Shown: in pieces, positions 2,391-24,395 of the stretch | Position numbering within the stretch: position 1 is the stretch's first letter | Layout of the letters: each line of letters starts with the position of its first letter | Origin: Boswellia sacra | Taxonomy: Eukaryota > Streptophyta > Magnoliopsida > Sapindales > Burseraceae | Direction of reading: 5' to 3' | NCBI GenBank assembly: GCA_013180625.2 | Contig: SNVD02000483.1 | Coordinates: 1-64,000 of the forward strand | DNA length: 64,000 nucleotides | The notes under the pieces: generated by a model | Database searches by the model: none | Seen by the model: only the letters and a program-made list of their open reading frames with translations | What the model was told of the DNA's origin: nothing | Program-made: the position numbers and the translations under genes

Positions 2391-2802
2391 AGTAGTCCTT
2401 TTGAGTGAAGTTTTTCTTGTCTGTGATTTAGGTGGCGATGTGTTGAATGAATATTCCTATTTCTACTATACAGTCTTTGTTTTCAACGCATTGCTCTCTA
2501 TTTTCATTAGGCAAATGTATATTTTGTTTCTAATTTACTAGGCAACAGGTCCCTTGGTACTGTAGCTAGGCTTTATAATGTTTGTGGGCTTCTTTATATT
2601 TGGGCAGTGCATAGATGTAACTTGTATTTTTTGCTGCAATGGATTGTATGTTTGCCTCTTGCGAGAGTGATATCTATCTTTGCCTTGCTTTTCATGATTT
2701 GGTATTTTTCATTTGTATATCCTGCTGGATTGGTTTTTTGCCAAATTGGCTAGGAAATCCACCCTTATGCCTCAAATGTACGTTTTACCTGTATGCTCCC
2801 CT
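2391..2802. other. Intergenic remnant, no gene recognised
   Basis: This is T-rich DNA between the decayed ORF and the solo LTR. The frames at 2326-2541 and 2639-3022 are hydrophobic low-complexity translations; the second runs into the LTR and CACTA end and is not a gene. The last bases (CCCCT) are the left copy of an imperfect TSD of the solo LTR. Confidence 0.4.
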
Positions 2803-2995
2803 TGATAGGTGCTTAATTAGACATTATTTTATATCAATTTTCTTATGCTTATTTACTATGTTTCTTAGTATTTTTATGTTTTTGTGTTATTTTGAAGTTT
2901 GTAAGAGTTTTGAAGGAGTTTGCATTAAAAAGAGTAAATTGGCTAATAATTGTGAGCAGCAAGTTGAAGCCACGACCTCAAAATTTGAAGTCATG

Positions 2996-3190
2996 CACTA
3001 CAAGAAAAGTAGGAATAGATGACTGACACTCTATGATAAAACTCGTTATATCATAAAAAAATGACATAATGATGATAGAATTATACTCTATCAGAAACTT
3101 TATGATAGACATGTGATATATTTTTTGTCTATCAATAATTGATGATAGAACAGTGATAGAAATTAACTATATCAAGAATTTCATGATAGA
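2996..3190. repeat. Left subterminal repeats of CACTA 1
   Basis: After the terminal inverted repeat, short motifs of the type TGATAGA / TCTATCA recur in both orientations at roughly 15-35 bp spacing (for example near 3030, 3079, 3100, 3132, 3140 and 3183). In this superfamily such subterminal repeats are the binding sites of the TNPA-type protein. Confidence 0.75.
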
Positions 3191-3299
3191 AATTTTTAAT
3201 TGACCATGTCTGACCGAAATATAAATTAATATTTTATTAATTATGAGCCAAAAAAAATAATTTTGTTAATAAAATATACATAATAAAACGGTGCGTTTT

Positions 3300-3830
3300 A
3301 TGCTTAATATAAGACAAGAAAATTTTCCTTTCCCTCTTTAACTTTCGGCTTCCCTCTTCTTCCCTCTTCTATTTGCCCTAGAAAATCTTTTTCCTCTTCA
3401 TTCTTTCACAGTCCTTGAGTCGCTCCCGCCATCAACGGCAATACTTCCCCCTCTCTCGCCGATCAAATCAATTGCTCTCTCCTTTTCTTTCACTCTGTCA
3501 GCAGCGCCCTCTCTTTAGTTGTTTCACTGTCTCTAAGCCGCTCCCACCATCAACAGAAAGACATTCCCCCTCTAACCGATTGAATCAGTTGCTCTCTCCC
3601 TCTCTCACTCTGTCAATAGCTCTCTCTCTCTTCCTTCTTTCACTTTCTCTAAGCCGCTCCCACCATTAACAGGACCTTATTCTTCCTTGCTTCTCCCCTC
3701 ACTCATCCCTCTGTCACTTCTGCGAAGACTCGACTGACCCATTCGCTTGGTGGAGCTGCTCGACTGAAGGAAAGGAAAGTTCGATTTCTTGCCTAAGGAT
3801 GTCACTTTGGCATTGATATCACATCTCAGG
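3300..3830 (+). other. CT-rich leader-like segment inside CACTA 1
   Basis: A CT-rich stretch (ttccctctt and ctctctcc runs) resembles the 5' untranslated leader of a plant gene. Two similar blocks containing 'ctaagccgctcccaccat' occur near 3533 and 3648, with a related block near 3416, so part of it is internally repeated. A short exon-like piece ends at about 3829 with CTCAG followed by GTTTGTCC. The frame at 3415-3669 is translated leader and has no known domain. Confidence 0.45.
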
Positions 3831-4859
3831 TTTGTCCTTAACTGATATCAACAAGAAGTTTAAATTTTTTTTCTTTTCTTGTTTGGGGTTTTGTTGAGAA
3901 GTCTGTTTTCACTGGTGGATGTGGTGATAGCGGATATTAGGTGGTTTTGGCATCAATTTGCTGTCAAGGCATTGCACTCGCACAATTGGTGGAGGCACCG
4001 AAAGCAATTGGGCTAGTCAGCCAATGTGCTTTGGTTAACTTGCCCTGAACGGAGATAGAAGATTTTGTTCTATTATTTTGGTACATGTTTTGTTTCATTG
4101 TTCTATTTGTTTACTCTCCAACCTCTTGTTTGTGGATGTTTTGAGAGAGATTAGAGTAACATTGTGCGTGGGTGATTCGCTCACCAAGGATATTGCTTAA
4201 TGATGAACAAGTAGAAAAGAGAAGAGATTTTGTTAATTTCACATTGCAATCCCAAGAGTTTATTAACATATTTATAATAAAAGTAAAGAAACTCATTCTA
4301 TTAGCTAAACATATTTCATTCCATAGATCAGGATTGGTGGAATCTTTAGAATATCTTAGAGGTATAAGCATCAAATTAGTTTCTGTGGCATTTTCTTGAG
4401 ACTCTTGAAGGCAAAGGCTGAAGGCTTAATTGTTAATAAATGCTTTCTGTAGTTATCATCGTTATCAATAATGGCTGTCTATGGAGTCTGATAAGCAGAA
4501 GATGGTAGTTTTGGCTTAGCATTCTTCCTCTGACGGACTTTGGTGAATGCCAGTCTGTTGAGACAGAACGGGAATGTTGCTTGCCACCTTGCCACTCAAA
4601 CAAGAAAGTAGACAATAGAAACTAATTTTCCATTTTTATGGAATAAGTCTAAATTAAAATAGGATAAGTGTGACATAAAGTTTCTGTCTTTAGAAAGTTG
4701 TATACTGTATCCTTTTATTTTTTTTTATGCAAGTGCCTAAGAATAACTCTTTGCTAATTGCTAACATATTTCAAGTTTTAAGTATTTATTTGCCAATCAT
4801 CAGTGATATATCATTGAATTTTTCTCATATGGTACCTTATGCTTGATTGTTTGTCTAAT

Positions 4860-7090
4860 CTGATAGGTCCACTTGAAGCACTTAGATGGCTATATTGAAG
4901 AGGTAACAGAGTTATTGCACTTTCATTTTGGTTTTGGGCCCAAAATTTTGCTGCTTTATCTGCTTTTAAATCTGTACTAAAACAAGTTCCTTATTTCTAT
5001 CTACCAGTAAATGAGTTAGTAGATGTTATTGCTTGCTATAGGTAATTACATGTTCTTACACAATGCTTGAATTTTGCTATAAATTATAATTCAAAGATCA
5101 GGGTGCAACTTATAGAGAGCATTTATAACTTAAGTTTTACCTCAAAATTTGCATTGGAATGGTTGTGAGATAAAATTATAGTAATTCACAATCACATAAA
5201 ATTTGAACAATACATAAATCTATATATAAAACAAATATCTATGTTCATCTTCTACTGCCAAATCTACCCTCTTTTTCAAAAAGTTGTACTGTATTGTATC
5301 CAATACTCTAATCTTTTTTTCATACCATGTGACTAAAAGCAAAACTTGACCAATTCCTTCTTACACGCAACAAGAAAGAGTCAGAGTAAGGAAGGGAAAA
5401 AAAAAAAAAAAAAAAGAAAGGAGTAAGACAATCTAATTGATTCTACTGATTCTGCACTGTGGTTATACCGTTGTTTTGCCATCTCCTTGTTATGCAATCT
5501 TACTGTTTCCATTTTGTGAAATTCCCATTAATGAATCCAATGTTGTTATAGAGATAATTCTGTCTTTCTTTGCTGTGTTCCTAGATAATTTTGTCTTTCT
5601 TTGCTGCGTTCCTTCTATTTGCAATTAAATTTTTTTTATTACAGTTGTTTCAACTACACAAATGCTTTAGCGGTAAGCTGTTATTTAACTTTTTGAAAAG
5701 CATATTATTTCTTTTTAAAATGCCAGTTTATTTTTCTTTCTATGCTAATGCTGGGTAATTACTGTCTCATTTACCTAATGGCTATAATGCTTTTTCATAT
5801 TTCCACATTAGTGACATTCCTTCTTATACTGAAAAAGTAGCCCAGAAAGTTCACTGATCCGTTTGCTTAAATACTGGCTATTATCGACTGTCTCCACATT
5901 CCTCAGAGTGTTCTGTTTACATTGAAGTCCTTTTAAGTTAACTTGAGGCAATGGTATCAATTTCAGGATCTGGTGGTTGGATACATGGGTGTTCCTAAAT
6001 ATCCTGGAATCAGCATGACACAGCATCCACAATATGTTACTGTCAGGTAAATGACACTGCTGGATCACAAGTATGCTGGTAACTTTTTACATTTTGATTA
6101 TTCTTTATTATCACTCCTAAGTGACTTCTCTTTTGTACTTCATATTGATTGTAGTTGCATCATTCTTTCCATAAAAGCCATAACTTTCATGTTCTTTTCC
6201 TTTTTTCCATTGCTTCAAATTGCAGAAATGAACGTGGAAAGGAAATGCTAAGTTTGGTAGAAAGCCTTTTGAAGATTATTCCAACAACTAGCAGTGTAAA
6301 CACCAAAGCTCTATCTTGCTCTGTTCATTTTAGGAATTTAGAAAAGTCGAACAGCTGAGATAAAATAATGACTATTTTATTTCAGGGCGAACGACACCTA
6401 TTTGTTATGGAGACTGTTAAGGCAGATGATAATGCTAAGATGGGTATGTATGAATCCTCTTCTTTGTTATTGATGAAGAGTTTTTGTATTACTTAAGCTT
6501 TATACTATATGCATGCATTTCAAGCTCCTTAACTAGACACAGAGGTCAGTTTGGTTGTTTTGTAGAACCTGCATGTATGAACTCACTGCCACAAGATTTT
6601 ATGAAATAGAATTTGGACCATCCGATCTACAGAATACGTAGATATCGTTCAAGCTGTTTAAATTAACTAGAGAAACAATCATGTAAACTCATTTTCCTCC
6701 CCTTTTTTGTGTTACCCATTTCTGCATCTAAGTCATAATATTCATTGTAGAAAAGAAAAATGAATGCCCATATTTGATTTTTTTTCTTTGGCTTCTGTAT
6801 ATCAATATAGCAGCTCATATTCTCTCTCTTTGAAATCTCTCTTTTAAGGGAAGGGTCCTTCTCAACCTGCCCCGAATTTCATTGGGAATTTGATAGCTTT
6901 TTTACTCAACCTGGTAAAGATCCCTCTTCACAACGTACACAGTAAAAGCAAACAAAAGAATTCTCTTATTCTTACCTAGCCCTTGTGGTGTAGATTGGCC
7001 CAAAAGGATTGGAATTTGCCCGGTATTCACTTGATTATCATACCATCAGGAACTACTTGCATGTGAACCGAGCTTGGGGAAAACAAAGGT
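4860..7090 (+). pseudogene. Captured exons of an unidentified plant gene in CACTA 1
   Basis: Exon-like segments with good splice borders follow one another: about 4867-4901 (HLKHLDGYIEE), 5644-5671 (LFQLHKCFS), 5968-6048 (GYMGVPKYPGISMTQHPQ), 6226-6298 (NERGKEMLSLVESLLKI), 6386-6442 (GERHLFVMETVKADDNAKM) and 6994-7088 (GPKGLEFARYSLDYH, then NYLHVNRAWGKQ). Each is followed by GT and most are preceded by AG after a T-rich tract. Retained introns point to capture of genomic DNA, not cDNA. I do not recognise the gene; the fragments may come from one gene or from several. There is no continuous ORF, so it is a fragment in any case. Confidence 0.55.
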
Positions 7091-8000: not shown

Positions 8001-9059
8001 ATGGCACAACTATTAGATTTGTCAAACCAAAACTGGAGAGGTTCCAGCAAGTCGAAGCCACGACCTCAAGATTAGAAGCCACAACTTTAAGTGTAAAGTG
8101 TCAAACATAGTTCCAATAGGCTAAAGCCGTGGTCGTGGGTTTTAAAGTCGCAACTCCAGCGCGATAAAAGATCTCATAAGAATGAATCTTGTGAACCTAG
8201 GGCTAACTCTCACTTACTCCAAAATGTATAAAGGCTACATATAAACCCTTGGAAGACCAAATTAGGGTCGACTATCATTTGGAGATCAATTCTCTAATTG
8301 AAGTTGACTATGTTTTTCTATAATAATTGCCTATGATTATTTTCTTGTTTCATTTAGGGTGGCCAACTAAATAAGAGTTGATTGTTGTCTATTGCTAATT
8401 TAGAAATCTTGATCTGTGATTGTTTTTAATTTCTATTCATTAGTAGCAAGTTGCGGTTAGAGATTACAACTGGAGAACATAACTTAAGTTAAATAATCCG
8501 AGCTTGTGTGTTTATTGCTTAGATAAACCTATATTTCTCTTATTAATGTATCCATTTAGTTACATTTATAGACCTTGTTTTAGGTTACTTTATGGACAGA
8601 GATTAAATAAAAAGCTTGTTTTATTTAACGATAAACTAAGGAAAGATTGTGATAACAAAGCTTGTTGTTATCTACGGTTGATAATTTCAATAGAAAATTG
8701 GATAATAATTCTATTATTGATTTGTAATTTCATATTTAGTGGTGGAGAATTATCCCTTGACTAGGTCTTTCTTATTATTAATTTTCATAATATTTAATTT
8801 TGTATTTTGTTATTCTTTATTAGCTTGTACATTTTATTGAGTTAGTCATTCATAAAACCCCTCTTTTATTATAATATTGTTGTTAATAATAAATTGATTA
8901 GAGCTAATCCTTGAGTGAACAATACTTCACTTATCACTATATTACTTGTGCGACTAGTATACTTGCTAATTTCAAATGTATCACCCTTCTTTTCAAAATG
9001 TTTCAAGTATTGCTTGTTGGTTTGTCTCACTGGTTGTTGGGTGAATCTGTCCCCCTTTC

Positions 9060-11147: not shown

Positions 11148-11475
11148 TGTGGAAAATCATATTTGATATTCCCTAATCCCTAATTTAAAAGGATTTTATT
11201 TTCTGATTCTAAGAATTATCTTTTATTTATTTTTTCCTGTTTAAATTTTTAGATAAGAGTGAGCTGTTTACTTTATCTCTAGTATAAGTTTTGAGATAAG
11301 AGTGAGTTGTTTTCTCTATCTCTTGTACAACTAAGAGTATTAGTATTTATCCCTAATTTTTAGGAATTCAGGACTCTAGAATATGGTATTCTTCTCAATT
11401 GGTATTTCCCTATATACAGCCATTGTTCTTCTAATTTTGTGTGTGAGAAATACAAGTTTTACTTCTCAAATTACA
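11148..11475 (+). repeat. Copia 5' LTR
   Basis: Begins TGTGGAAAATCA and ends CTCAAATTACA. It contains the duplicated motif 'gagataagagtgag' (about 11251 and 11294) and a promoter-like 'ccctatatacagcc' near 11410. The length is the same as the 3' LTR. Confidence 0.93.
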
Positions 11476-11489
11476 TAGTATCAAAGCCA
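11476..11489 (+). promoter_or_regulatory. Copia primer binding site (initiator Met tRNA type)
   Basis: TAGTATCAAAGCCA directly follows the 5' LTR. It matches the usual Copia site TGGTATCAGAGC with two changes. Confidence 0.8.
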
Positions 11490-11515
11490 CAATCTGATAC
11501 ACGATAACATATAAA

Positions 11516-11796
11516 CATGTCTTCTAGAAAGGAATCATCAAGTTCATAAGTTACCTCAATCAAAGAGGTTTCCACTCACATCCAACCTAACAATTTTGAT
11601 GCTACGGTTCTACCTATTAGCAACCATAGGTTGAATGGCCATAATCACCTCCAATGGTCTCAGTCCATTATGATGTTTATATGTGGCAAAGGAAAGGATG
11701 ATTATCTCATAGGGGGTTGTCGTGGCTCCTCCACCTACCGATCTAAAATATAAAACATGGGAGGCCAAAGACAATATGGTCATGTCTTGGATAAAT
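11516..11796 (+). pseudogene. Copia gag, N-terminal part (split)
   Basis: Starts ATGTCTTCTAGAAAG. Reading through one stop and a frameshift gives RLNGHNHLQWSQSIMMFICG and GKGKDDYLIGG, the conserved start of plant Copia gag (UBN2-type). The frame is cut after 'MVMSW' by the Athila-like element; the rest continues at 20981. Confidence 0.85.
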
Positions 11797-13207
11797 TGAT
11801 AGGTGTCTATTTACGTATTACTTTTATATCAATTCGTCCATGTTTCTTTGCTATATTCCTTGGTATTTTTATGTTTTTGTGTGGTTTTGATGTTTGTAGG
11901 AGTTTTGGAGCAACTTGCACAAAAATGGAGTAAAACCCTTCATTTTCACCTCTGCTAGTCAGTGATCTTCTCGGATTTAATTGTATTGATATACAATGAA
12001 CCCGATGACATGTTATATACCGTTGGAAAGCTCTCGAAGTCTATTTTCTGGAGAAATTTACGGTTTATAAATCCATTCAGTGTACCAAAAGTTGTAATCA
12101 AAACAGTGTGAGATGTATAGAAATATAATTCCACAAGTCACTGTAGCATGTATAATACGGGGCACTGTAGCAAGTCACTGTAGCAGAGTATTTAAACACA
12201 TTTTAGGGTTTTATTTTCATAACTTGAAGAGGGGAGAACGTGGTGGAGGCTGCAGCTCTGGAATTCTTTCATCTCTTGGAGTTCTTGAAGGAGAAAGGAA
12301 GCTTGGAAAGAGGAAGAACTACAATCCAAAGAGAATTACATCAAATTTGCTAAGTTTTTCCCTTCCCTTTCATTTTCTGGAATGTCTCCATGTTGTATTG
12401 TATTTACCACGTTCTTAAACATGTGTAACTGAATCTGAATTGGTTGAGGGTGATTTCAAAGCCCCTGATATGGTTTTTGTAAGTTGATTGTGCAAAAGTT
12501 GTTATCCAATTCTCTAATTGAAGTTGCTTGTATTTTCCCATATCTAATGCTTATGATTGCTTGCTGGATTGTATTTGGGTGGCCAACTGAATATAATCTG
12601 GATATTGTCTATTGCTAGACTAGAAATCTTGATCCGTAATTGTCTTGAATTTCTAATCCTTAGTAGCAAAATTGTGATCAGAGATTGCAATTGGAGAATA
12701 CAACCTAAGTTAAATAATCCGAGCTTGTTGTTTATTGCTTAGATCAACCTATCTTTCTTATCGTAATGCATCCATTGAATTAAATTTAGAGAGCTTGTTC
12801 TAGGTTGTTTAATGGATAGAGATTAAATAAAGAGCCTGTTTTATTTAACAACAAAGTAAGGAAAGATTGGGATAACAGAGCTTGTTGTTATCTACGGTTG
12901 ATAATTTCAATGGTGTAATTGGATGACAATTCTACAATTAATTCGCAAATCCATATCTTGTGGTAGAGAAGGATCCCTTAACCAGGTTTCTCTCATTGAT
13001 TTTCACTCAAATTAACTTTCTGTTTTGTTATTCTTTACTTGCATTAATATTTCATCTAGTTAATCAATCAACAAAACCCCCCCTCATTTAGTTTATTGTT
13101 GCTTTCGAATAACAAATTCAATTAGAATCAATCCTCGTGGGAACGATATCTTACTCATCACTTTATTACTTGTGCGACTAGTATACTTGCTAGTTTCGAA
13201 CGCATCA
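11797..13207 (+). repeat. Athila-like 5' LTR
   Basis: Begins TGATAGGTGTC and ends CGAACGCATCA, followed at once by the primer binding site. It holds three CACTGTAGCA motifs and a TATTTAAA box (12190-12197). A frame of about 64 codons (12227-12418) is conserved in the related LTRs but has no ATG. Confidence 0.95.
12139..12197 (+). promoter_or_regulatory. LTR promoter region: three CACTGTAGCA motifs and TATA-like box
   Basis: CACTGTAGCA occurs at 12139-12148, 12163-12172 and 12176-12185, just upstream of TATTTAAA (12190-12197). The LTR copy at the window end has the same motifs in slightly diverged form and a better box (TATATAAA near 63528). Position and repetition suggest upstream activator sites and the core promoter of the LTR; this is inference. 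Confidence 0.6.
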
Positions 13208-13213
13208 AGTTTT

Positions 13214-13231
13214 TGGCGCCGTTGCCGGGGA
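13214..13231 (+). promoter_or_regulatory. Primer binding site complementary to tRNA-Asp
   Basis: TGGCGCCGTTGCCGGGGA follows the 5' LTR by six bases. It is the exact complement of the 3' end of plant tRNA-Asp including CCA, the primer used by Athila-type and related Gypsy elements. Confidence 0.93.
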
Positions 13232-13320: not shown

Positions 13321-14178
13321 ATGGCAGTAAACTTCTATCAATTCAGTAGCGGATTTGAGCCACAAGTACCATGGAGAGTAAATGAGGTAAGCACTCCGAA
13401 CATTGAACAACAACTTTCTGAGCTAACCTCTCTTGTGGAAAACATGGCTGTAGGAGATATGCAAAAATCTTATGAATGTGGGATATATTCTACGATGGAG
13501 CATCCAATCGACATGTATCCAACTTTACAAGAAGAATATATGGAACAAGCCAATGCCATGGGTGGATTTCCAGGACAAACGAGGCAATGGTATGATCCTT
13601 TCTCTAGCACTTACAATGCTGGATGGGAAGATCAACATAATTTCAGTTACTGGAATCATCAACCAATCACTCCAAATGTGATACCAAATCGGCCACAAAG
13701 TTTCAATCAACCTAGAGTGCAGCAACCATTTCAAATGCAACCACCACTAATGCCACATCCAGCACCGCAACCAGCTTTGCAAAACTCAGGTATGTCTCTC
13801 GAAGATATTGTTAATGCACTTGCCACTAACACAATGCAATTCCAGCAGGAAACTGGGGCAAGTATCCAAAACCTGGCAAATCAAATGGGACAATTGGCTA
13901 CTAGCATGAGCAAATTCGAGGGTCAAGACTCAGAAAAATTATCTTCTCAAGCGGTGATCAATCCAGGAGAGACTGTTAGTGCGATAACTTCGCAAGGTGG
14001 AGAGCAATTAGATATCTTGCGAAGGAAATCACAAACTGATGAAGGAGATGACACCACTTCCACCATGAACAAAACATTGACTTCTGAGGTAAATCCTATA
14101 ACCCTCATTCCTTCATATGTTTCTCCTCCACTTTTTCCTAGTAGATTTGTAAAATCAAAGAAGAAGGAACAAGAATAG
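13321..14178 (+). CDS. Athila-like gag, C-terminal portion
   Basis: An open frame of 285 codons from the ATG at 13321 follows the primer site by 90 bp. It begins MAVNFYQFSSGFEPQ and has a Gln/Pro-rich middle (about residues 110-155). Then comes the helical segment typical of Athila gag tails (SLEDIVNALATNTMQFQQ, QNLANQMGQLATSMSKFE), ending PPLFPSRFVKSKKKEQE. The capsid-type retrotransposon gag core that should precede this is missing, so the protein is about half the usual size. The stop at 14176-14178 falls where the family normally reads on (next residues EILETFRKIEVNIPLLDA), so it is probably a mutation. The start is the first ATG in frame. Confidence 0.8.
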   Translation: MAVNFYQFSSGFEPQVPWRVNEVSTPNIEQQLSELTSLVENMAVGDMQKSYECGIYSTMEHPIDMYPTLQEEYMEQANAMGGFPGQTRQWYDPFSSTYNAGWEDQHNFSYWNHQPITPNVIPNRPQSFNQPRVQQPFQMQPPLMPHPAPQPALQNSGMSLEDIVNALATNTMQFQQETGASIQNLANQMGQLATSMSKFEGQDSEKLSSQAVINPGETVSAITSQGGEQLDILRRKSQTDEGDDTTSTMNKTLTSEVNPITLIPSYVSPPLFPSRFVKSKKKEQE

Positions 14179-15322
14179 GAAATCTTGGAAACTTTTCGCA
14201 AGATTGAGGTAAATATACCACTTCTGGATGCTATCAAGCAATTACCTCGTTATACAAAATTTCTCAAGGAGTTATGCACCAACAAGAGAAAGTTGAAAGG
14301 AAATGAGAAGGTAAGTGTGGGGGAAAATGTTTCAACTGTTTTACAAAGAAAAATTCCTCCGAAATACAAAGATTCAGGTACGTTCACCATTACATGCACC
14401 ATTGGTAAAAACTAAGTTTGAAAGAGCTACGTTAGATTTAGAAGCATTTATTAACATCATGCCATATTCTATTTATGCTTCTTTATATCTTGGACCTTTT
14501 GCGGAAACTGATATTACCATTCAACTTACCAAAAGTGCTGTGGAAGATGTGCTTGTGCAGGTGAATCAATTGGTTTTTCCAGCAAACTTCTATGTCCTTG
14601 AAATAGAGGATGAGACATCCCCTAATCCAACACCGATTCTTTTAGGGAGACCATTCTTGAAAACTGCTAGAATCAAGATTGATGTTCATTATGGCACTTT
14701 GACCATAGAGTTTGATGGAAAGGTGATATGTTTTAATATTTTTGAGGAACTGAGGTACTCTAATGACTTACATTCTGTTTTTGCAGTTGACGTTATTGAT
14801 TATTTGCCACAACAATGTTTTGAGTTAACTCGCAAGAATGGAGTGGATGTTGCTATTAGTGAACACATAAGGATAGAAAGTTTCAAAGAACCAAGAAAGC
14901 TGATACAAGTGTCTAAAGAAGTGGAGGAAGCTGTGACAAGCTTGGATGAGACTATAGCTATCACCACAAATAGGTATGATGTTTCGTACATTGAATTGCC
15001 TTTATCTAATGAGAAACTTCTTCCTTCTGTGATGAAAGCCAATACCTTGGAGCTTAAGTCACTTCCAGATCATTTGAATTATGGATTCTTGGGTGAGAAT
15101 GATACTTTGCGAGTTACAATGGAAATGGGCCTTGCACGAATACAAGAAGATAAACTCGTCCGAATACTTACAGATCACAAAATAGCTATTGAGTGGACAA
15201 TTGTTGAAATCCAAGGCCCATCCATATGCATTGACCGTATCTTGTTAGAAGAGGGATCCAAGCCCATTAGAGAAGCACAACAGAAATTGGATCCTCCCAT
15301 GATGGAACCAACGTCGGGCTGA
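14179..15322 (+). pseudogene. Athila-like pol: protease, linker and stump of RT
   Basis: 14179-14415 reads on from gag (NIPLLDAIKQLPRYTKFLKE, VSVGENVSTVLQRK), then a frameshift near 14400 leads into the frame ending at 15322. The protease begins near 14420; its active-site block reads DLEAFINIMPYS where the family has D-L-G-A-S, so Gly and Ser are both lost and it should be inactive. ILLGRPFLKTARIKIDVHYG follows. The linker (ELKSLPDHLNYGFLGEN) and the very start of RT (REAQQKLDPPMME) are present, then the frame ends at PTSG. The rest of RT, RNase H and integrase has been deleted: the next bases (GTTAAACCAAGCGCTTATTAG) are those usually found after Athila pol. Confidence 0.85.
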
Positions 15323-15765: not shown

Positions 15766-16320
15766 ATGGATGCCGTTATCTTTCTGTCAAACCTTCGCAA
15801 ATATTTTCCTTCACTTCCTCAAAATGCTGTGTTTAAAATTTATAAAGTACGAATGACTAGACTTTGGGTATTGATGCTCTTAAATCTGCCTGCGGATATC
15901 CGATGGCTTATCGAAGCCAAGGTGAGATTGTCCGGTGAGCCGGACATTAATCTCGCAAAATACATGCCTGGTCTAGGAAAGAGCTACTACGCCAAGAGGC
16001 GAAGAGCGAAAAGGTTACAAGTATGTTATAAATGTGCTAGATGGAATTGTAACCAGACTTGTCGTTCATTAGGTTTTGTGTCCAGGAATAGAGAAGATAA
16101 ACTTTCATTTATTAAGAATGGTTTGAGTAATGAGTCGCTGGATAATGTTTTGTTAACTCTCGAGTCACATTCTTGTGGACTTGTTCAGCGTGAATTGCTT
16201 AATCTATGGACACAATTTCGTGATGAATTGCAGTGTTATAGTCTAGGGAATCTGACTAAAAACGACCCTGTTTGCCAGTTTATAAGAAAACTGGATGGGA
16301 AGCAAATCCCCGACTCATAG
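15766..16320 (+). CDS. 184-aa Cys-rich basic protein, resembling plant-virus nucleic-acid-binding CRPs
   Basis: Intact ORF from the ATG at 15766, in the env position of the element. It has no signal peptide and no convincing membrane anchor, so it is not an envelope glycoprotein. Residues 1-70 are mixed hydrophobic and basic. Residues 71-84 contain GKSYYAKRRRAKRL, followed at once by Cys87, Cys90, Cys95 and Cys99, a possible zinc site. Then comes SLGFVSRNREDKL and an uncharged C-terminal half. An Arg-rich stretch right before a compact Cys cluster, in a small protein, recalls the cysteine-rich nucleic-acid-binding proteins at the 3' end of carlavirus-type genomes (Carla_C4 family), some of which suppress RNA silencing. 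The spacing of the last two Cys is tighter than I would expect, and this rests on memory of motifs, not a search. Alternatively it is a zinc-binding protein of retroelement or host origin. Confidence 0.6.
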   Translation: MDAVIFLSNLRKYFPSLPQNAVFKIYKVRMTRLWVLMLLNLPADIRWLIEAKVRLSGEPDINLAKYMPGLGKSYYAKRRRAKRLQVCYKCARWNCNQTCRSLGFVSRNREDKLSFIKNGLSNESLDNVLLTLESHSCGLVQRELLNLWTQFRDELQCYSLGNLTKNDPVCQFIRKLDGKQIPDS

Positions 16321-16545
16321 AAGGCGTTTCAGCCGTTACTGGACGTAAAACCAGAGGAAGATGTGAGCCACAATCACAACTACTTGTATATTTGAATGTG
16401 TGTTGTTGTTGTAGAATTTTTTTTCTTGTTTCGTTTGATCTGATTATCAATGTTGTTTTTGTGTTGTTGTTGTTTGTTGATTTTGTTTGTTTTAATTTCA
16501 AGTTTTCTTTTTGACAAACCAGATGACTACCCCATGATATAAGCA
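16321..16545 (+). other. T-rich spacer between the Cys-rich ORF and the hairpin repeats
   Basis: T/G-rich DNA with repeated TTGTTG, ending TTTTCTTTTTGACAAACCAG at 16522. This again looks like a polypyrimidine tract and 3' splice acceptor, directly followed by ATGACTACCCCATGA (a five-codon frame). No protein is supported. Confidence 0.4.
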
Positions 16546-16800
16546 CACGTGGAAGACAAGTGTGGAGGTTTTGTCAACCTCCGCCGAAAGTATATCTTTA
16601 CTTTTCATGCTTCACGTGGGAGACAAGTGTGGCGGTTTTTTTCAAACCCCACCGAAAGTTTATCTCCATTTTTCATGCACACGTGGGCGACAAGTGTGGA
16701 GGTTTTGTCAAACCCCACCGAAAGCATATCTATTTTTTCAAATCTCGGGGCGATAAATCTGCATCGAGCAACCCCCACCGAAATTATGTCCCCATGTGTC
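16546..16800 (+). repeat. 67-bp tandem repeats with CACGTG boxes and potential hairpins
   Basis: Three good copies start with CACGTG at 16546, 16613 and 16680 (period exactly 67), and a decayed fourth runs from about 16745. Each good copy contains CACGTGG, GACAAGTGTGG, a stem-loop (16562-16584, 16629-16652, 16696-16718) and CCGAAAG. The stem is GTGG-N-GGTTT against AAACC-CCAC. In copy 1 both arms differ (GGAGGTT / AACCTCC) yet still pair. CACGTG is the G-box bound by plant bZIP and bHLH factors. Frames of 60-110 codons cross the array in several phases, all without ATG, and only reflect the repeat. Confidence 0.8.
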
Positions 16801-16822
16801 AAATTTGAGAGTTTTACGTGTG

Positions 16823-16829
16823 TATATAT
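16823..16829 (+). promoter_or_regulatory. TATA-like box upstream of the LOG-like ORF
   Basis: TATATAT lies 106 bp upstream of the ATG at 16935 and downstream of the three CACGTG boxes. The arrangement (G-box array, TATA, start codon) is what a private promoter for the LOG-like gene would look like. Inference only. Confidence 0.4.
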
Positions 16830-16934
16830 CCATTCTGCATATTTTCAAATGTCATTTCATAACCTGTCTTGCACTTGAATCGCATAATACCTAACGTGCA
16901 TCATTGTCTTACACAAGTTAGAGCACTTGTAGAA

Positions 16935-17586
16935 ATGGAGAAAACACCAATTCGGCGATTCTGCAATATATGCGTATTTTGCGGATCGCAATTTGGTAAA
17001 GATGGAGAGTTTACCAACAGCAGCTCTTGATCTTGGTAGGACATTAGCTGCGAGGGGTATTCATTTGATTTATGGAGGGGGTAGTCTTGGGTTAATGGGG
17101 TGTGTGTCGACAGCTGCATCCTTGGGAGGAAGTAAAGTTCTCGGCATTATCCCTAAACCATTAGCTGTGCGAGATATCGTAGGCAACACAATCGGGGAAG
17201 AGTTACAAGTCTCTAGCATGCATGAGCGTATTGCACATATGGTTGTTAAGTCCGATGCATTTATAGCTTTACCCGGTGGTTATGGCACATTAGAGGAGAT
17301 ATTTCAAATCACCTCTTGGGCACAGCTAAACATCCATAAAAAACCCATTGGTTTGTTAAATGTCAATAACTTTTTTGATGGTTTGTTGTCTTTTCTTGAT
17401 CAAGCTGTAGAAAAAAATTTTATCTCACCATCAGCGAGGCAAATCCTTGTTACAGCTTCAACGGCAGGGGAGTTAATTGACAAACTACAAGAATTCGTCT
17501 ATTCACCTGATCCAACAATGGCTCGGATAAATTGGTTTGGAGAAGGCAATAAGAGGCGTAAACTGGATTTAACCCTCCATCTGTAA
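16935..17586 (+). pseudogene. LOG: LONELY GUY-like cytokinin riboside 5'-monophosphate phosphoribohydrolase, intronless, one frameshift
   Basis: LOG enzymes release active cytokinin bases from nucleotide precursors in the cytosol. The ATG at 16935 opens MEKTPIRRFCNICVFCGSQ, the usual LOG N-terminus, but the frame stops at 17028. One extra base near 17019 (run CAACAGCAG) moves the rest into the next frame, open to 17586 (194 codons from the internal ATG at 17002). That frame has LIYGGGSLGLMG, GIIPKPLA, MHERIAHM (the substrate-binding Arg kept, the usual Lys after it replaced by Ile), PGGYGTLEE (catalytic Glu kept), SWAQLNIHKKPIGLLNV and a basic C-terminus RRKLDLTLHL. Length and end match a divergent LOG-like branch of plants. 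Plant LOG genes have several introns; this copy has none, so it was probably captured from RNA. Translation from 17002 would lose the N-terminal strand with CVFCGS. Confidence 0.88.
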
Positions 17587-18810
17587 TCTCTATTTGCTGG
17601 TTTGCTTCGTTTTTGTTTGCTTTCTTTTTAGTGTGTTTATTTGAGATTTTTCATGTCGTTTCTTTTGAGCTTTTTCAGGTTATTTCTTTCGTCCCAGGTA
17701 ATATTTTCTAATCTCGGTTTTTAGAGTGGTGGCTTAAAAAGTTCAAGTTCTCTTGAAACGCATTCTGGATCTCTTCAATCCATAATGGCTGAATAAGGAG
17801 GCTAACTTCTAAACTTTTTAGACCCATTCTAACTAACTTGTTTTTGTTTGCTGACTTGTTGAACTTTGTTATTTTATGAGTGAGTTTAGTTTTGCGTAAT
17901 TTAGAGTTGTTATGTGTTTTTATCTTTATCAGTTTCGATTCAAAAAAAACAATTGTGGAAAAACCTGAGAATGGCAGAATATGGGGTTTTCTTTAACCTT
18001 TGAAACGCATTCTCTCGAATAAATCTGTAGTTTGTTTATTTCATGTTGTTTGAAGTGTCTTGTATCTTGTTTTGTTCTTTCATAATAAAGGTATATAGGC
18101 TGGAAACCTTAAGTCTGCGGGCTACTGGTCCTAAGGATTGTTGAAATATACAATCTTGACTCAGGTGTAACAACGCCACGTACCTCTTCTCTTACATTTT
18201 ATGGGCCAATGATAAGGCAATGATTGAATTAAGAATAACTCTTGGAAAATGATAAATGATGCATGGATCTGTGTGTGCTTTAATGTTAATTAGCTTTACC
18301 TTTGATTCCTTGCACAAAATTGAGCACCGAGCCATTATCACTGAGTTATTTGTTTACTTAGAGAAAGTTTATGTAATTTAAGTGTTTCTTCAGATTTCAA
18401 TGAATTCTAGAACTTGTTTGATGGTCACTCGAGGCGAAATCCTAGACTGTGCAACATTAGGGAAATGATTTAGGCCATCTTTGGACCGTTTGAGCCTTAA
18501 GAGCCAACCTTGACTAAAATTGATCCCTAGTTACCCCTTTGAGCCTCTGTAAACCTTTTTCTTTGTTAACTCACTAAAAGATTTCCTAACCTCAATTGAA
18601 TTTGTTCCAAACAGTTTATCCCTTACCTATGAGCATGTAAATCATTCGCAATTACATTTTGAGCTATGTTCTGGTTTTGGGAAGTTAGAGGAGGTTGGAT
18701 TGTGCCATGAGCAATGCAAGTGAGTTTTATTATGTTTGTAAAAAAAAAAAAAAAGAGAAAAAAAAATCTGTACTTATCTTCCACGTACTTAAACATTGAG
18801 GACAATGTAT
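17587..18810 (+). other. Non-coding 3' region of the Athila-like element
   Basis: No gene is seen. T-rich plant-leader-like text with some repeated phrases: 'gaaacgcattct' occurs at about 17756 and 18003. The poly-A run at 18739-18752 generates short false frames on both strands. The region corresponds to the long untranslated 3' part known in Athila elements. Confidence 0.55.
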
Positions 18811-18815
18811 TGTTT

Positions 18816-19019
18816 AAGTGTGGGGGAGTGGAATTGCAGTTAAAAAAAAAAAAAAAGAAAAGAAAAGAAAAAGAGTTCTATACCCTTGGGTGTTCTTAAA
18901 AAGAATGAAACAACAAAGTGTGGGGGTGTAGTTTCTTTTGTTTTCTACAAAAAAAAAAAGAAGAAGAAGAGAAGAAAAAAAAAAAAGAAGATTGAGTGTT
19001 CTAAATAAGTTTGGGGGAG
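18816..19019 (+). repeat. Array of polypurine-tract-like motifs
   Basis: AAGTGTGGGGGAG (18816-18828), AAGTGTGGGGGTG (18916-18928) and AAGTTTGGGGGAG (19007-19019), each near A/G-rich runs. They resemble the true tract at 19548-19562. The interior A/G stretches (18841-18872, 18948-18990) are simple-sequence expansions. Confidence 0.7.
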
Positions 19020-19547
19020 TAACCTGGTGAATTAAAATAAAGTTGTGTTATAAGGGTGAGCTCTACATAATCTTGAATGATTTATGTGTTTGTGGGTGAT
19101 TTGAGCCAAATTATTATCCTTGATCATACCTTCACCCAAGCCAAACGTTACAAGCTTAATAAAGTCCTACTTGATCCTTGGTGTTGTACATGTCTACATT
19201 AGTGGAGAGTGACTTGAAAAGCAGGCCTATGGAGTTCATTTATACATACATCTTCACTATTAAATATGATTCATTTTTAAACATAAACTCATCCGGGTTA
19301 CAAGTGATTAGGTGAGAATGGCTCTACACACACACACTTGAGGAATTGAAGTGAAGCGAAACTAATTTTTGAGATAAAATTCTTGATCAAGTGCATTATT
19401 TTGAAGTTTTCCTTGGGTTATAATTAAGTACAATCTTTGAGGCCTATTTGCAAGTTGAAGCATTTGTGTGTTTTAATTTTTCTTTGATTCTGTTTCGGTT
19501 TAGTTTTGTTTCGTATCATTTTAGTTGCTCGAGGACTAGCAAAGTCT
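19020..19547 (+). other. Non-coding stretch between polypurine motifs and 3' LTR
   Basis: No gene is seen. Ends with TTGCTCGAGGACTAGCAAAG, a phrase common just before the polypurine tract in this group of Gypsy elements. Confidence 0.5.
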
Positions 19548-19562
19548 AAATGTGGGGGAATT
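19548..19562 (+). promoter_or_regulatory. Polypurine tract of the Athila-like element
   Basis: AAATGTGGGGGAATT abuts the 3' LTR (TGATAGG at 19563), the expected primer site for plus-strand synthesis. Confidence 0.85.
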
Positions 19563-20975
19563 TGATAGGTGTCTATTTATGTATTACTTTTATATCAATT
19601 CGTCCATGTTTCTTTGCTATATTCCTTGGTATTTTTATGTTTTTGTGTGGTTTTGATGTTTGTAGGAGTTTTGGAGCAACTTGCACAAAAATGGAGTAAA
19701 ACCCTTCATTTTCACCTCTGCTAGTCAGTGATCTTCTCGGATTTAATTGTATTGATATACAATGAACCCGATGACATGTTATATACCGTTGGAAAGCTCT
19801 CGAAGTCTATTTTCTGGAGAAATTTACGGTTTATAAATCCATTCAGTGTACCAAAAGTTGTAATCAAAACAGTGTGAGATGTATAGAAATATAATTCCAC
19901 AAGCACTGTAGCATGTATAATACGGGGCACTGTAGCAAGTCACTGTAGCAGAGTATTTAAACACATTTTAGGGTTTTATTTTCATAACTTGAAGAGGGGA
20001 GAACGTGGTGGAGGCTGCAGCTCTGGAATTCTTTCATCTCTTGGAGTTCTTGAAGGAGAAAGGAAGCTTGGAAAGAGGAAGAACTACAATCCAAAGAGAA
20101 TTACATCAAATTTGCTAAGTTTTTCCCTTCCCTTTCATTTTCTGGAATGTCTCCATGTTGTATTGTATTTACCACGTTCTTAAACATGTGTAACTGAATC
20201 TGAATTGGTTGAGGGTGATTTCAAAGCCCCTGATATGGTTTTTGTAAGTTGATTGTGCAAAAAGTTGTTATCCAATTCTCTAATTGAAGTTGCTTGTATT
20301 TTCCCATGTCTAATGCTTATGATTGCTTGCTGGATTGTATTTGGGTGGCCAACTGAATATAATCTGGATATTTGTCTATTGCTAGACTAGAAATCTTGAT
20401 CCGTAATTGTCTTGAATTTCTAATCCTTAGTAGCAAAATTGTGATCAGAGATTGCAATTGGAGAATACAACCTAAGTTAAATAATCCGAGCTTGTGTGTT
20501 TATTGCTTAGATCAACCTATCTTTCTTATCGTAATGCATCCATTGAATTAAATTTAGAGAGCTTGTTCTAGGTTGTTTAATGGATAGAGATTAAATAAAG
20601 AGCCTGTTTTATTTAACAACAAAGTAAGGAAAGATTGGGATAACAGAGCTTGTTGTTATCTACGGTTGATAATTTCAATGGTGTAATTGGATGACAATTC
20701 TACAATTAATTCGCAAATCCATATCTTGTGGTAGAGAAGGATCCCTTAACCAGGTTTCTCTCATTGATTTTTCACTCAAATTAACTTTCTGTTTTGTTAT
20801 TCTTTACTTGCATTAATATTTCATCTAGTTAATCAATCAACAAAACCCCCCTCATTTAGTTTATTGTTGCTTTCGAATAACAAATTCAATTAGAATCAAT
20901 CCTCGTGGGAACGATATCTTACTTATCACTTTATTACTTGTGCGACTAGTATACTTGCTAGTTTCGAACGCATCA
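19563..20975 (+). repeat. Athila-like 3' LTR
   Basis: Almost the same as 11797-13207. Differences noticed include ACGTATT/ATGTATT at the start, a TC missing before the first CACTGTAGCA here, CCCATATC/CCCATGTC, GCTTGTTG/GCTTGTGTG, ACTCATC/ACTTATC and single-base changes in homopolymers. Ends CGCATCA, followed by TSD TAAAT. Confidence 0.95.
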
Positions 20976-20980
20976 TAAAT

Positions 20981-21540
20981 TCAATGACCAATGGTGAAGA
21001 CTTCATGTACTATGGAACAGCTAAGAAGATTTGGGACGTAGCTCGAGAATCCTACTCTGACAGTGAGAACACTTCACAACTTTGAAAGGTTAATTCATGA
21101 TTTCAAGGAAGGTGATCTCTTTGCAACTTAATATTTTAGTTCCTTGAATAGATTTTGGAAGCAAGTTGATTTGTTTGAGAATGGCTAGTTGTCCCGACTA
21201 TAATAACAAATACAAGAAAATTGTTGAAAAAGAGAGAATTTTTAAGTTTTCGTTAAGGCTAAATAAAGATCTAGATGAAGTTACGGGGAGGATTTTGGAA
21301 TCAAACCATTACCTTCTATTCGAGAAGTTTTTTCAGAAGTAAGAATGAAGGAAAATAGGAAAAAGATCATGCTTGGAGGATCAAATGCCTCTCAACCAAG
21401 CCCAAAAGAAAGCTCTATACTTGTTGCTCATAACACCAACATGCCAAACAATGACAACCATGCTAGAAGGAGAGGGAGACCTTTATGTGACCACTGTAAG
21501 AAGCCAGGTCACACTAAACAAAATTATTAGATTCTTTATG
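20981..21540 (+). pseudogene. Copia gag, C-terminal part with zinc knuckle
   Basis: Resumes the gag cut at 11796: FMYYGTAKKIWDVARESYSD, then after frameshifts and stops NKYKKIVEKERIFKF and LRLNKDLDEV. The zinc knuckle CDHCKKPGHTKQNY (C-x2-C-x4-H, last Cys replaced by Tyr) lies near 21486-21527. Not translatable as one protein. Confidence 0.85.
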
Positions 21541-22320
21541 GAAAACCACCTGATTGGAAGCCACGTGAGAACTGAGGATATGCAGTAGTTGGGAATACTC
21601 ATTTCTCAGTAGAAAATAGTCCATTTAGCAAAGAACAACTTAAAGTCCTCAAACAACTGCTTAACCAGACCAATTTGTCTTTCCCAACCATGCAAAATAG
21701 CGGATCCAAGCCTAATATCACTGAAACCAGCATAGAAACTGGTTATGTTGCTCACCTAGGTAATCTTTCTATTGCTTTGAGCTCTAAGGTTGACAAAAAC
21801 AATACTCGATTGTTGACTCTGGAGCTTCTAATCATATTACAGCTAATGCCTTTTTATTTCATGAATATAAACCTTGCTTTGAAAACCTGCTGATGAAAAT
21901 TATGGATGGCTCTATAATTAAGGTGGTTGGAATAGGCATTGTGATTATATCTAATAATCTGATTTTAAAATCAGTGTTGTCGGTTCCTAATTTGGCATGC
22001 AATTTATTGTCTGTTAGCAAACTGACCAAGAATTTAAAATGTGTTACAAATTTCCTTTCTACACACTGTGTTTTTCAGGACTTGGAAGCGAGAAAGATGA
22101 TTGGCAATGCTAAGGAAGAGATGGAGCTTTGTCTTCTCGAAAACACACAAGGTCTTCAAAAACAAATTCATACTACAAAGGGTGTAGCATTTATTGTTTT
22201 TCCTCCATTACCTAATAATAAAAGTACTATTATGCTTTGGCAATCTAGACTTGGTCATCCAAATTTTGTGTGTTTGAAGAAACTTTTTCCAGATCTATTC
22301 AATAAAAGTAATTCCTAATT
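21541..22320 (+). pseudogene. Copia protease and gag-pre-integrase remnant
   Basis: The protease site VDSGASNHITANAFLF is readable near 21812-21860, in a frame differing from the flanking one. Then VLSVPNLACNLLSVSKLTK (around 21977-22030) and the pre-integrase block LWQSRLGHPNFVCLKKLFPD (22235-22295), with the His of the HHCC zinc site. The frame ends in a stop at 22316. Confidence 0.85.
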
Positions 22321-23640
22321 CCTACAGTGTGAAATCTATCACCTATCAAAACATACTAGATCCAATTACCCTTTTCAAGGATATAAACCTTCAGAACCAT
22401 TTTCAATTATTCACAGTGACATTTGGGGGCCTTCTAGGGGTTAACAAAATTATTCGTACAAGATGATTTGTATCATTCATAGATGATCACACGAGGTTTT
22501 TCTAATAAAGAGAAGTCTGAAACAAAGTCAATATTTCAAACTTTCCAACAAATGGTCTAGAATCAGTTTCAAACAGCTATCAAAGTATTTAGGTTGGATA
22601 ATGCTAAAGATTACTTTAACTCTGTGCTTAGGAAAAGCTTAAAAAATAATGGAATTTTTCATCAAAGTTCATGTTTAGATACCCCACAACAGAATAGGAT
22701 CGCAGAAAGGAAGAATAGACACCTTCTTAAGGTTGTTAGATCTATCATGTTTTCCATGAATGTACCAAGGTATTTTTTAGGGGAAGCCATTTTAACCACT
22801 GCCTATCTAATCAATAGGATGCCTTTTAGTGTCCTTAAATTCAAAGCACCATGTCAAATGTTACAATCAATCTCAACAACCAAATTATCAATACTCTTCA
22901 TCCAAAAATCTTCGAGTGTTCATTCAAGACCATTCATCAGACCTAAGCAAGCTAGATCCAAAGGCAATCAAGTGTGTCTTTCTTAAGTACTCTGCTAAAA
23001 AAGGTTACATGTGTTATTTTCCTATCATAAGAAGGTTCTATACTACCACAGATATGACATTCTTTGAAAGAGATCCTTACTTTCCCAAAACACACATTCA
23101 AGGAGAAATCATTAGTTCAAGAATATGTATTTTGGCAAGACTTTCAAGACCATTGGACAGTACTCGAGACAAACCATACAAACCATGATCTTTACCCAAC
23201 TTTAGCTACTACTAGAAAACCATCTGAGACCCAAAATCCACCTCAGACCAACCATGATGCACAACATGACTTGACCGAAGTACTTGAGAATAAAAATCCT
23301 GAATCACTTCCAACAGCTTCACCTCGTAACTACATATTACTTTCAAAACAAACTGAGTTACATGTTTATTTAAGACAAAAATAACCTCAAGAGAAGATAA
23401 AGCATCATTAAGTTCCTAAACAAAGCCAAGAATCCAACTTGATTCTGGAAAGTCCAGGCAACACTATCTCTGAGCCTAGTCTTGAAAATAATTCTCTTTA
23501 TCTTGATGTTCCCATAGCTCTCAGGAAAGGAGTCAAAAAATGTAGAAACATCCTATTGGGCAATTTGTTTCCTATGAAAGTTATCTCCTCATTTTCAAGC
23601 TTTGATTACAAATATTTCCATTATAGAGATCCCGCAGTCG
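22321..23640 (+). pseudogene. Copia integrase remnant
   Basis: Cys pair and first catalytic Asp region near 22323-22440 (FSIIHSDIWGPS). The second Asp region reads RLDNAKDYFN (22591-22620) and the Glu region reads DTPQQNRIAERKNRHLL (22678-22728). Continues through FLGEAILTTAYLINRMP to the C-terminal domain with several frame changes (22829-23188, 23064-23384, 23439-23648). Confidence 0.88.
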
Positions 23641-24395
23641 ATTTATGAGGCACTAAAGAAACCTGAGTGGAATGCAGCTATTGGAGATAAGATTAATGCC
23701 TTGAAGAAAAATGGTACAGGGGACCTCAAGGTAAACAACTAGTGGGCTGCAAGTGGATCTCCAATGTTAAATACAAACTAGATGGAACTGCGGACTGATA
23801 CAAGGCTAGGTTGGTCACTAAGAGGTTTACTCAGACCTATAGGTTGGATTATCAGGAGACTTTTGCTTCAATTGCAAAACTTAACTCTGTTTGCGTATTA
23901 TTGTCTCTTGCAGCTGATTGTGGTTGGCCTCTCTTTCAACTATATGTCAAGAACACTTTTATCAATGGTGATTTGGAAGATGAAATTTATATGGAGATTC
24001 CTCCTGGATTTGAAACACCTATTAATGCTAATAAAGTTTGTAGGTTGTGGAAATATCTGTATAGCCTTAAGCAATCCCTTCGAGCATGGTTTGAAAAATT
24101 TGCAAAGGCAGTTAAGAAGCATGGTTACGATCAAGGTCAAGCCGATAGCACTCTTTTCATCAAACATCCACAAGATGGTAAGATAGCAATATTTATTGTC
24201 TATGTGGATGGCTTTATTCTAACAGGAGATGATCTAGAAGAATTGAGCAGATTAAAGAAACTTATTACCAATGAATTTGAAGTTAAGGACCTAGGGAATC
24301 TAAAATATTTCCTAGGAATGGAGGTTGCTCATTCTAAAAGAGGAATCTCAATTTCACAAAAAAAGTATGTCCTAGGTTTGCTTGAAGAGACATGA
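23641..24395 (+). pseudogene. Copia reverse transcriptase remnant
   Basis: After a broken start (23645-23800), 23811-24395 is open and shows RFTQTYRLDYQETFASIAKL, LFQLYVKNTFINGDLEDEIY (usual D-V-K-N-A-F-L-H-G region; the catalytic Asp here is Tyr), CRLWKYLYSLKQSLRAWFEK and the catalytic box as YVDG, not YVDD. Two catalytic Asp are thus lost, so it is inactive. The part after 24395 (LGCKPTNTLME) is frameshifted. Confidence 0.9.

Follow-up and report, generated by a model that had tools for sequence, protein, structure and literature searches.

A 64,000-nucleotide stretch of Boswellia sacra DNA (GenBank assembly GCA_013180625.2, contig SNVD02000483.1, positions 1 to 64,000 of the forward strand; hereafter the window) contains a young, recently moved long terminal repeat (LTR) retrotransposon, which is pol-deleted and belongs to a high-copy Ty3/gypsy family. 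In full-length members the order is LTR-gag-PR-RT-RNaseH-INT-NABP-array-LOG-LTR, where PR, RT and INT are protease, reverse transcriptase and integrase, NABP encodes a small cysteine-rich protein that, judged by its sequence, is a viral-type nucleic-acid-binding protein, and LOG encodes a relative of the plant enzyme LONELY GUY. We show here that NABP and LOG are under purifying selection similar to that acting on RT, and that relatives of both genes are present in other eudicots, in some of which they are linked. Copy number, linkage and the selection seen in shared variants support the proposal, made in a first-pass annotation of the window drawn from its letters alone, that these extra genes are cargo with a function rather than junk, and the two probably form a conserved accessory module that occupies the env position of the element.

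The window element is a deletion derivative

The element lies between two copies of a 5-bp target site duplication (TSD), TAAAT (11792..11796 and 20976..20980), and its 5' LTR (11797..13207, forward strand) and 3' LTR (19563..20975, forward strand) differ at 3 of 1409 aligned bases (99.79% identity), a divergence K of 0.002. When the flanks are joined without the element, a frame of about 60 codons that is Copia gag-like by eye stays open across the junction. Together with the TSD pair this indicates that the whole composite moved as one unit, in agreement with the first-pass annotation, which had described the element as recently mobile.

That annotation treated the cargo as the property of one element, and proposed a search for further copies in the source genome. 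In the source assembly (638.6 Mb, in which the window is on contig C241) the cargo matched the window and at least 39 further places at 94-98% identity, the best 40 of 5121 candidates being scored (41 rows, one of which is the second piece of C836). Thus, the cargo is real, but it is common to a whole family. The matches on C6746 and C4180 (copies L018 and L019) are identical and are probably an assembly duplicate; L019 was left out of the counts. One copy, L017, holds RT, RNaseH and integrase between protease and NABP (with its pieces searched separately, RVT_1 was above cut-off in one of two, and RNaseH and rve were above cut-off), and a search with its pol gave 40 places, among them its own (best 40 of 3948 candidates scored). 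The order RT-RNaseH-integrase is therefore seen in L017 by profile and at 39 further places by DNA homology, and is absent from the window copy. Only C5651 was common to the cargo-match and pol-match sets, and the family occupies at least 79 places in the source genome (78 if the identical pair C6746/C4180 is counted as one). Downstream of pol, at 12 sampled of the 40 places, NABP was found in all 12 (L041 was cut after 304 bases) and LOG in 10, the copies in which LOG was not found within the stretch fetched being L041 and L049. As both genes stand behind pol in the fuller copies, the NABP-LOG module is a part of the complete element, from which the window copy arose by deletion.

The 'pol stump' of the first-pass annotation (14315..15322, forward strand) is indeed present and comprises, by eye, the protease region plus the first RT codons, homologous to positions 105-1123 of copy L017; it is, however, to be read as the remnant of pol after an internal deletion. 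Comparison with other deletion copies places the junction at which RT, RNaseH and integrase were removed at 15296..15320 (forward strand). The 43 NABP sequences collected include 18 of the deletion type, 14 with pol (pol+; 12 of them chosen by pol) and 11 unassigned. The junction was readable in 12 of the 18 deletion copies and lies at the same site in each, with a small local difference in L016. In copy L024, positions 1-6446 hold two head-to-tail PR-stump/NABP/array/LOG units, a tandem of the deletion-type interior. LTR divergence over the eight usable of nine LTR pairs ranged from K 0.002 (the window) to 0.105, L020 being dropped because its two LTRs are in opposite orientation. In a tree of the cargo, pol+ and pol-deleted copies are intermixed, indicating that the two types recombine.

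Both extra genes are under purifying selection

Individual copies decay after insertion, and private and shared variants were therefore separated in estimating omega (dN/dS). The null model kept base and CpG/CHG context in the 31/30-copy sets, the 43/40-copy sets and the controls, and base only in the strict sets and the RT control. The 31/30-copy sets comprised 30 fetched of the 39 places plus the window (nine places left out, L019 dropped, L024 holding two copies). Among the 31 copies of NABP, singletons comprised 35 synonymous (S), 107 nonsynonymous (N) and 9 stop changes, giving an omega of 0.98, and variants common to at least three copies comprised 18 S, 4 N and no stop changes, giving an omega of 0.11. 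The corresponding values for the 30 copies of LOG were 55 S, 201 N and 16 stop (omega 1.18) for singletons and 41 S, 20 N and no stop (omega 0.23) for shared variants. With the pol+ copies added (43 NABP, 40 LOG) shared omega was 0.13 and 0.27, respectively. In the strict deletion set variants shared by at least two copies gave 0.15 for NABP and 0.24 for LOG, and in the strict pol+ set 0.19 for each, with one stop each.

Controls were treated in the same way. At the threshold of three copies the PR stump gave an omega of 0.91 (9 copies), which is neutral in the copies tested, and four non-coding stretches read in an arbitrary frame gave 1.09, 2.98, 1.18 and 0.90. RT (9 copies) had 14 S, 2 N and no stop changes (omega 0.05; 0.23 at a threshold of two copies). 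As shared omegas are low in NABP, LOG and RT but not in the spacers, the cargo is constrained much as RT is, and these data show purifying selection on both extra genes. Intact NABP was found in 8 of 32 rows and intact LOG in 5 of 31 non-partial rows (L019 included in both), with 3 of 13 and 3 of 11, respectively, among pol+ copies. The comparison of dN/dS between copies that the first-pass annotation had suggested thus points to constraint on both genes; that annotation would have abandoned its proposal had no other copies existed or had both genes evolved neutrally, and the 39 further places and the low shared omegas speak otherwise.

NABP is related to cysteine-rich proteins of plant viruses

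The NABP open reading frame (ORF; 15766..16320, forward strand) is intact over 184 aa, as originally described, and matches Viral_NABP (PF05515; 1e-10, 42.4 bits against a cut-off of 23) and Carla_C4 (PF01623; 3.6e-5, 24.1 bits against a cut-off of 20.9). A basic run is followed by a finger, C-x2-C-x4-C-x3-C, whose cysteines (C87, C90, C95 and C99) are kept in 41-42 of 43 copies. A search among 5.8 billion proteins returned 264 relatives at E <= 0.01, of which the best 120, those listed, are 53-74% identical to the query; 60 of these 120 are 182 aa long, the element proteins being mostly of 182-184 aa, and 103 carry the finger pattern. In an alignment of 63 sequences, the window included, the finger cysteines are invariant or nearly so, and 59 sequences match Viral_NABP and 57 Carla_C4. 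No relatives were found among the viral contigs or plasmids searched. The fold predicted from the single sequence was unusable (pLDDT 47), and a model based on the alignment reached pLDDT 65.9. Against solved structures the single protein had no match at E <= 1, and the best matches of the alignment query had E values of 0.38-0.74. The first nine matches among viral structures (BFVD; E >= 0.43) include seven named as silencing suppressors or NBP of plant viruses, among them those of pruneviruses, fig latent virus 1, garlic virus X and chrysanthemum virus B (CVB).

Viral relatives of NABP are described as suppressors of RNA silencing, and p12 of CVB also as a transcription factor that causes hyperplasia (PMC12172455); proteins of the CVB type, termed NABP or cysteine-rich protein (CRP), are likewise presented as both suppressor and activator (PMC7588395). 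With the Pfam matches, these published roles strengthen the initial view that the protein is virus-like and may be linked to silencing. The NABP stop codon is TAG in 29 of 31 copies and GAG in 2, with 24 more in-frame codons 3' of the stop. A readthrough extension was rejected, as variants 3' of the stop have no clear codon-position bias.

The LOG proteins of the elements form a separate clade

The LOG-like ORF (16933..17586, forward strand) matches PF03641 at 3.6e-39, and among solved structures Arabidopsis At2g37210 is closest to it. The ORF has no intron, whereas canonical plant LOG genes generally do, and the frame of its apparent start, the ATG at 16935, differs from that of the remainder, which bears out the earlier description of an intronless LOG-like ORF with a frameshift. 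The ORF is otherwise uninterrupted and has the motifs GGGSLGLMG and PGGYGTLEE and the C-terminal sequence RRKLDLTLHL; intact copies of 216 aa occur elsewhere in the source genome. The window LOG is above cut-off for PF03641 / TIGR00730 and has the PGGxGTxxE motif. It scores 111 bits with the equivalog model NF058542 (cut-off 300), but as the Arabidopsis-type LOG P0241 also falls below (132 bits), this model does not discriminate for plants.

The search returned 3883 LOG relatives; the best 120, those listed, include 38 from Reevesia and 7 from Diplodiscus by name, and others from Populus, Melia, Rhamnella and Xanthoceras. Two features set these proteins apart from canonical LOGs. At the lysine that follows the conserved Arg (MHxRK), all 109 readable canonical LOGs of 120 listed read KAEM (11 were unreadable), and the listed element-LOG relatives have M, I or L in 89 of 97 readable cases, K in 7 and H in 1; the window LOG, which reads MHERI, lacks the canonical lysine. 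In addition, a C-terminal LxLxL is present in 101 of the 120 listed relatives versus 0 of 120 listed canonical LOGs, and a basic run stands near the end in 109 of the 120. In a tree of 28 of the listed canonical LOGs, Arabidopsis LOG8, the 118 matches P0003-P0120, two Xanthoceras proteins and the window, the listed relatives group together with a support of 0.954, and 114 of them form a clade with the window with a support of 0.967. Within this clade 101 of 114 members have the exact C-terminal LxLxL, mostly after a basic run such as KKRK, and 98 of 114 keep PGGxGTxxE. P0062, P0063, P0069 and P0076, which end in KRRRLD and keep MHERK, branch with the Xanthoceras pair beside the large clade, their own grouping being weak (0.526), and P0050, which has both the tail and the lysine, is the first branch within it. 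The gain of the tail and then the loss of the lysine therefore look like ordered steps. These comparisons show element LOGs as a separate clade with its own tail, which resembles a nuclear localization signal (NLS) followed by LxLxL; as the canonical set held only LOG1/3-type proteins and one LOG8, the donor could belong to a different subfamily of plant LOGs. LxLxL is a published definition of the EAR motif (PMC6283911, PMC9956375), and the tail is predicted to be nuclear and EAR-like.

The two genes occur together in other eudicots

Named NABP relatives among the 120 listed come from Populus, Rhamnella, Xanthoceras, Acer and Orobanche. In Rhamnella the LOG gene FNV43_RR03511 adjoins the NABP gene RR03512 by locus tag, and NABP and LOG are joined in one protein in one Rhamnella model and in five listed models from Orobanche, a genus of parasitic plants (P0221, P0229, P0234, P0236 and P0240). 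A further Rhamnella model, P0205, joins, by eye, an integrase-like end to NABP. Three pairs of contigs of equal size (8723, 2425 and 2128) appear in both the LOG and NABP lists and were assumed to be the same contigs. Across eight partner sets, distances between NABPs rise with those between the LOGs (Spearman 0.70, permutation P 0.005), the sets not all being independent: the Populus set is matched by genome only and two Orobanche sets are close kin. With seven sets the coefficient was 0.75 (P 0.04) and with six 0.79 (P 0.04). Thus, by protein and locus comparison, both genes are shown to be present in other eudicots and to be linked in some.

The region between NABP and LOG

A conserved spacer (16321..16540, forward strand), in which positions 16321-16400 hold no variant common to at least three copies, separates NABP from a repeat array (16541..16820, forward strand) of three to four units at a spacing of 60-68 bp. 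None of 200 shuffled versions of the region 16535-16815 folds as well as the original (z -3.2), and the structured array of the first-pass annotation is thereby upheld; copy comparison suggests that unit number varies between elements. Three units contain CACGTG, the G-box core, at 16546, 16613 and 16680, and these are kept in 28-30 of 31 copies. Beyond the array, TATATA (16823..16828, forward strand), 112 bases 5' of the LOG ATG, is a candidate internal promoter; it is kept in 31 of 31 copies, as are 27 of 393 hexamers equally. The 3' region may therefore have its own promoter. The G-box array is not put forward as a proven enhancer, its conservation being unexceptional.

Discussion

Whether the extra genes of plant LTR retrotransposons act at all is a long-standing question, and for many of them no relative can be recognised. 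The two genes described here are related to proteins of known activity, which suppress silencing or activate transcription in the case of NABP and release cytokinin in that of LOG; both are under RT-like selection and present in intact copies, so that counter-defence by an element, and control of cell division driven by an element, can be tested by standard assays. In the mechanism that we propose, NABP would bind RNA and suppress RNA silencing, activate host transcription, or both, to the benefit of the element. LOG, which would be expressed from the array/TATA region or from genomic RNA, would act in the nucleus, where it could release active cytokinin, engage TOPLESS-type co-repressors through LxLxL, or do both, and may thus be able to alter hormone level. 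Cells with an active element would then stay proliferative, and the element would reach the germ line. The window copy, having lost pol, would have to use relatives for reverse transcription and integration. More tentatively, a Ty3/gypsy lineage with such a host-manipulation module could extend across eudicots, pairing a virus-type silencing suppressor and transcription factor with an EAR-tailed nuclear LOG that joins cytokinin release, or its remnant, with TOPLESS binding; the lineage would block its own silencing and keep the host cell dividing, and its NABP would have been exchanged with RNA viruses. This wider proposal is possible but doubtful. If true, it would describe a plant counterpart of a growth-promoting retrovirus.

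It should be stressed that several observations weigh against a conserved module with these activities. With respect to selection, one stop codon is common to at least three copies in each ORF of the 43/40-copy sets, and singletons fall below 1 in two subsets, with an omega of 0.62 (P 0.012) for LOG among deletion copies and of 0.59 (P 0.02) for NABP among pol+ copies, as with few copies the singletons include lineage variants. The gag-like ORF, moreover, is itself weakly constrained in variants common to at least three copies (omega 0.51, P 0.01, 11 copies), its omega being 1.04 at a threshold of five. The intermixing of pol+ and deleted cargo means that selection is not assignable to the deleted lineage itself, and its attribution to that lineage alone was rejected because the cargo recombines. 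With respect to the proteins, the NABP model (pLDDT 65.9) had no significant match among the viral structures of BFVD, the best E being 0.43. The LOG lysine is lost in most of the element clade, only P0050 among the 114 listed members matching the pattern tested (some were unreadable), and PGGxGTxxE is found in none of the five Orobanche fused models, four of which read PGGYDTLNE. Enzyme activity may therefore not be the conserved function of the element LOG. Finally, conservation of the G-boxes does not exceed that of the sequence around them: two of the three are equalled by 177 of 393 hexamers and the third by 60 of 393.

One could argue that NABP and LOG are neutral passengers, viral and host sequences caught by template switching and copied without function. 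Retroelements do capture transcripts, many of the copies have broken ORFs and the LOG of the window is itself frameshifted. Neutral copying, however, does not explain why shared variants are mostly synonymous, with no stop or one, when private variants are neutral, nor why relatives of both proteins that keep the conserved motifs are found in further plant families; the shared-variant test and its controls lead us to reject this highly improbable explanation. It is also improbable that only one of the two genes matters and that its partner persists by linkage. Although LOG was not found, within the stretch fetched, in 2 of the 12 sampled pol+ copies, each ORF taken alone has a low shared omega, other plants have the two genes side by side or fused, and the distances of the two proteins covary over the eight partner sets.

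A role of the pair in the replication of the element, and not in the host cell, is harder to set aside, with NABP serving as an RNA chaperone or as a packaging or nuclear-export factor and LOG as a nuclear scaffold, a pseudoenzyme with an EAR tail. Constraint similar to that on RT, the lost lysine and the Orobanche fused models, in which KRKR..LDLSL is kept in four of five and PGGxGTxxE in none, would all fit such a role. We nevertheless regard it as rather unlikely, since PGGxGTxxE, which a pure scaffold would not need, is retained by most of the clade and by the window. The direction of exchange is a separate matter, and it is quite possible, if short of probable, that NABP is of non-viral origin, an old plant retroelement gene captured by ancestors of the carla-, tricho-, viti-, allexi- and mandariviruses. 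NABPs of the element type are found widely among eudicots, and related viral proteins are reported from some genera of two virus families (PMC12172455); on the other side, the Pfam families were described for viral proteins. In either case the presence of NABP in both suggests that plant RNA viruses and retroelements have exchanged genes. With regard to function, a conserved accessory module remains the reading that we favour.

Parts of this system have precedents. A LOG-type domain (YgdH, LOG-family) is in print for gypsy LTR consensuses of Citrus and Populus (PMC9289625, citing Steinbauerova et al. 2011), and these elements, which resemble ours in having such a domain in a Ty3/gypsy context, possibly belong to the same or a related lineage; the part of PMC9289625 that concerns them mentions neither NABP, a two-gene module, selection on the ORF nor an NLS/EAR-like tail. 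The first-pass annotation knew of no described element with this pair, and we likewise found no published report of NABP, of the NABP-LOG pair or of the LOG tail in a retroelement, in a searched literature that excludes most subscription journals and bioRxiv; since LOG in gypsy elements is already in print, what is new here is the pair together with its conservation and the tail on LOG. The env-like ORFs of Athila and the aORFs of Retand similarly stand behind pol and are common to copies (PMC7264820, PMC11963269), but their origin and function are presented there as unknown or only suggested, whereas here viral and host-enzyme relatives are recognisable. A Phalaenopsis gypsy element with an ALKBH-type m6A demethylase (PMC9289625) also has a captured accessory enzyme retained over replication rounds, but the enzyme is another one, the case is reported as one gene in one orchid genus, and the passage describing it mentions no viral partner gene. 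The R1 LINEs of insects, like the present family, contain a plant-RNA-virus-like gene, in this case a tobamovirus-like helicase domain, but are described as non-LTR elements with the domain inside ORF2 (PMC4686597). NABP shares with the NABP or CRP of carlaviruses and mandariviruses, such as CVB p12, the Pfam families, the basic region with a Cys finger and the small size (PMC12172455, PMC7588395). The viral proteins, however, are encoded by RNA viruses, and the element NABP, mostly of 182-184 aa, stands beside a LOG gene. Finally, element LOGs share with canonical LONELY GUY proteins of the At2g37210 type the PF03641 fold, GGGSxGLMG and PGGxGTxxE; they differ in the tail and in the replacement of the MHxRK lysine, both seen in most element LOGs, and the window ORF differs further in having no intron.

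Remaining structure and genomic setting of the element

With its paired LTRs, TSD, primer site and purine tract, the window element has the structural marks of an LTR retrotransposon. The primer-binding site, TGGCGCCGTTGCCGGGGA, is at 13214..13231 (forward strand, position counted from the letters) and presumably matches the 3' end of tRNA-Asp; the putative label Athila rests on this site and on the ORFs at the env position. The gag-like ORF (13321..14178, forward strand) is named by its place after the 5' LTR and is near-neutral to weakly constrained. Pfam searches gave no match above cut-off for this ORF and no protease match for the stump at 14315..15322. LOG is followed by a non-coding tail (17587..19562, forward strand) with the purine-rich tract ATGTGGGGGAATT at its end, before the 3' LTR.

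The element is nested in a Copia retrotransposon (11467-11796 and 20981-24395), across whose joined flanks the frame is open, and ORFs with Pfam matches to Pol_BBD, gag_pre-integrs and RVT_2 lie 3' of the element at 21794-24395. A diverged stretch at 8240-8960 resembles, by eye, the internal half of the LTR of the element and is perhaps an older relative or a solo LTR. Further away, on the reverse strand at 37344-40914, are ORFs that by eye are like a CACTA/En-Spm transposase of the TNP2 type.

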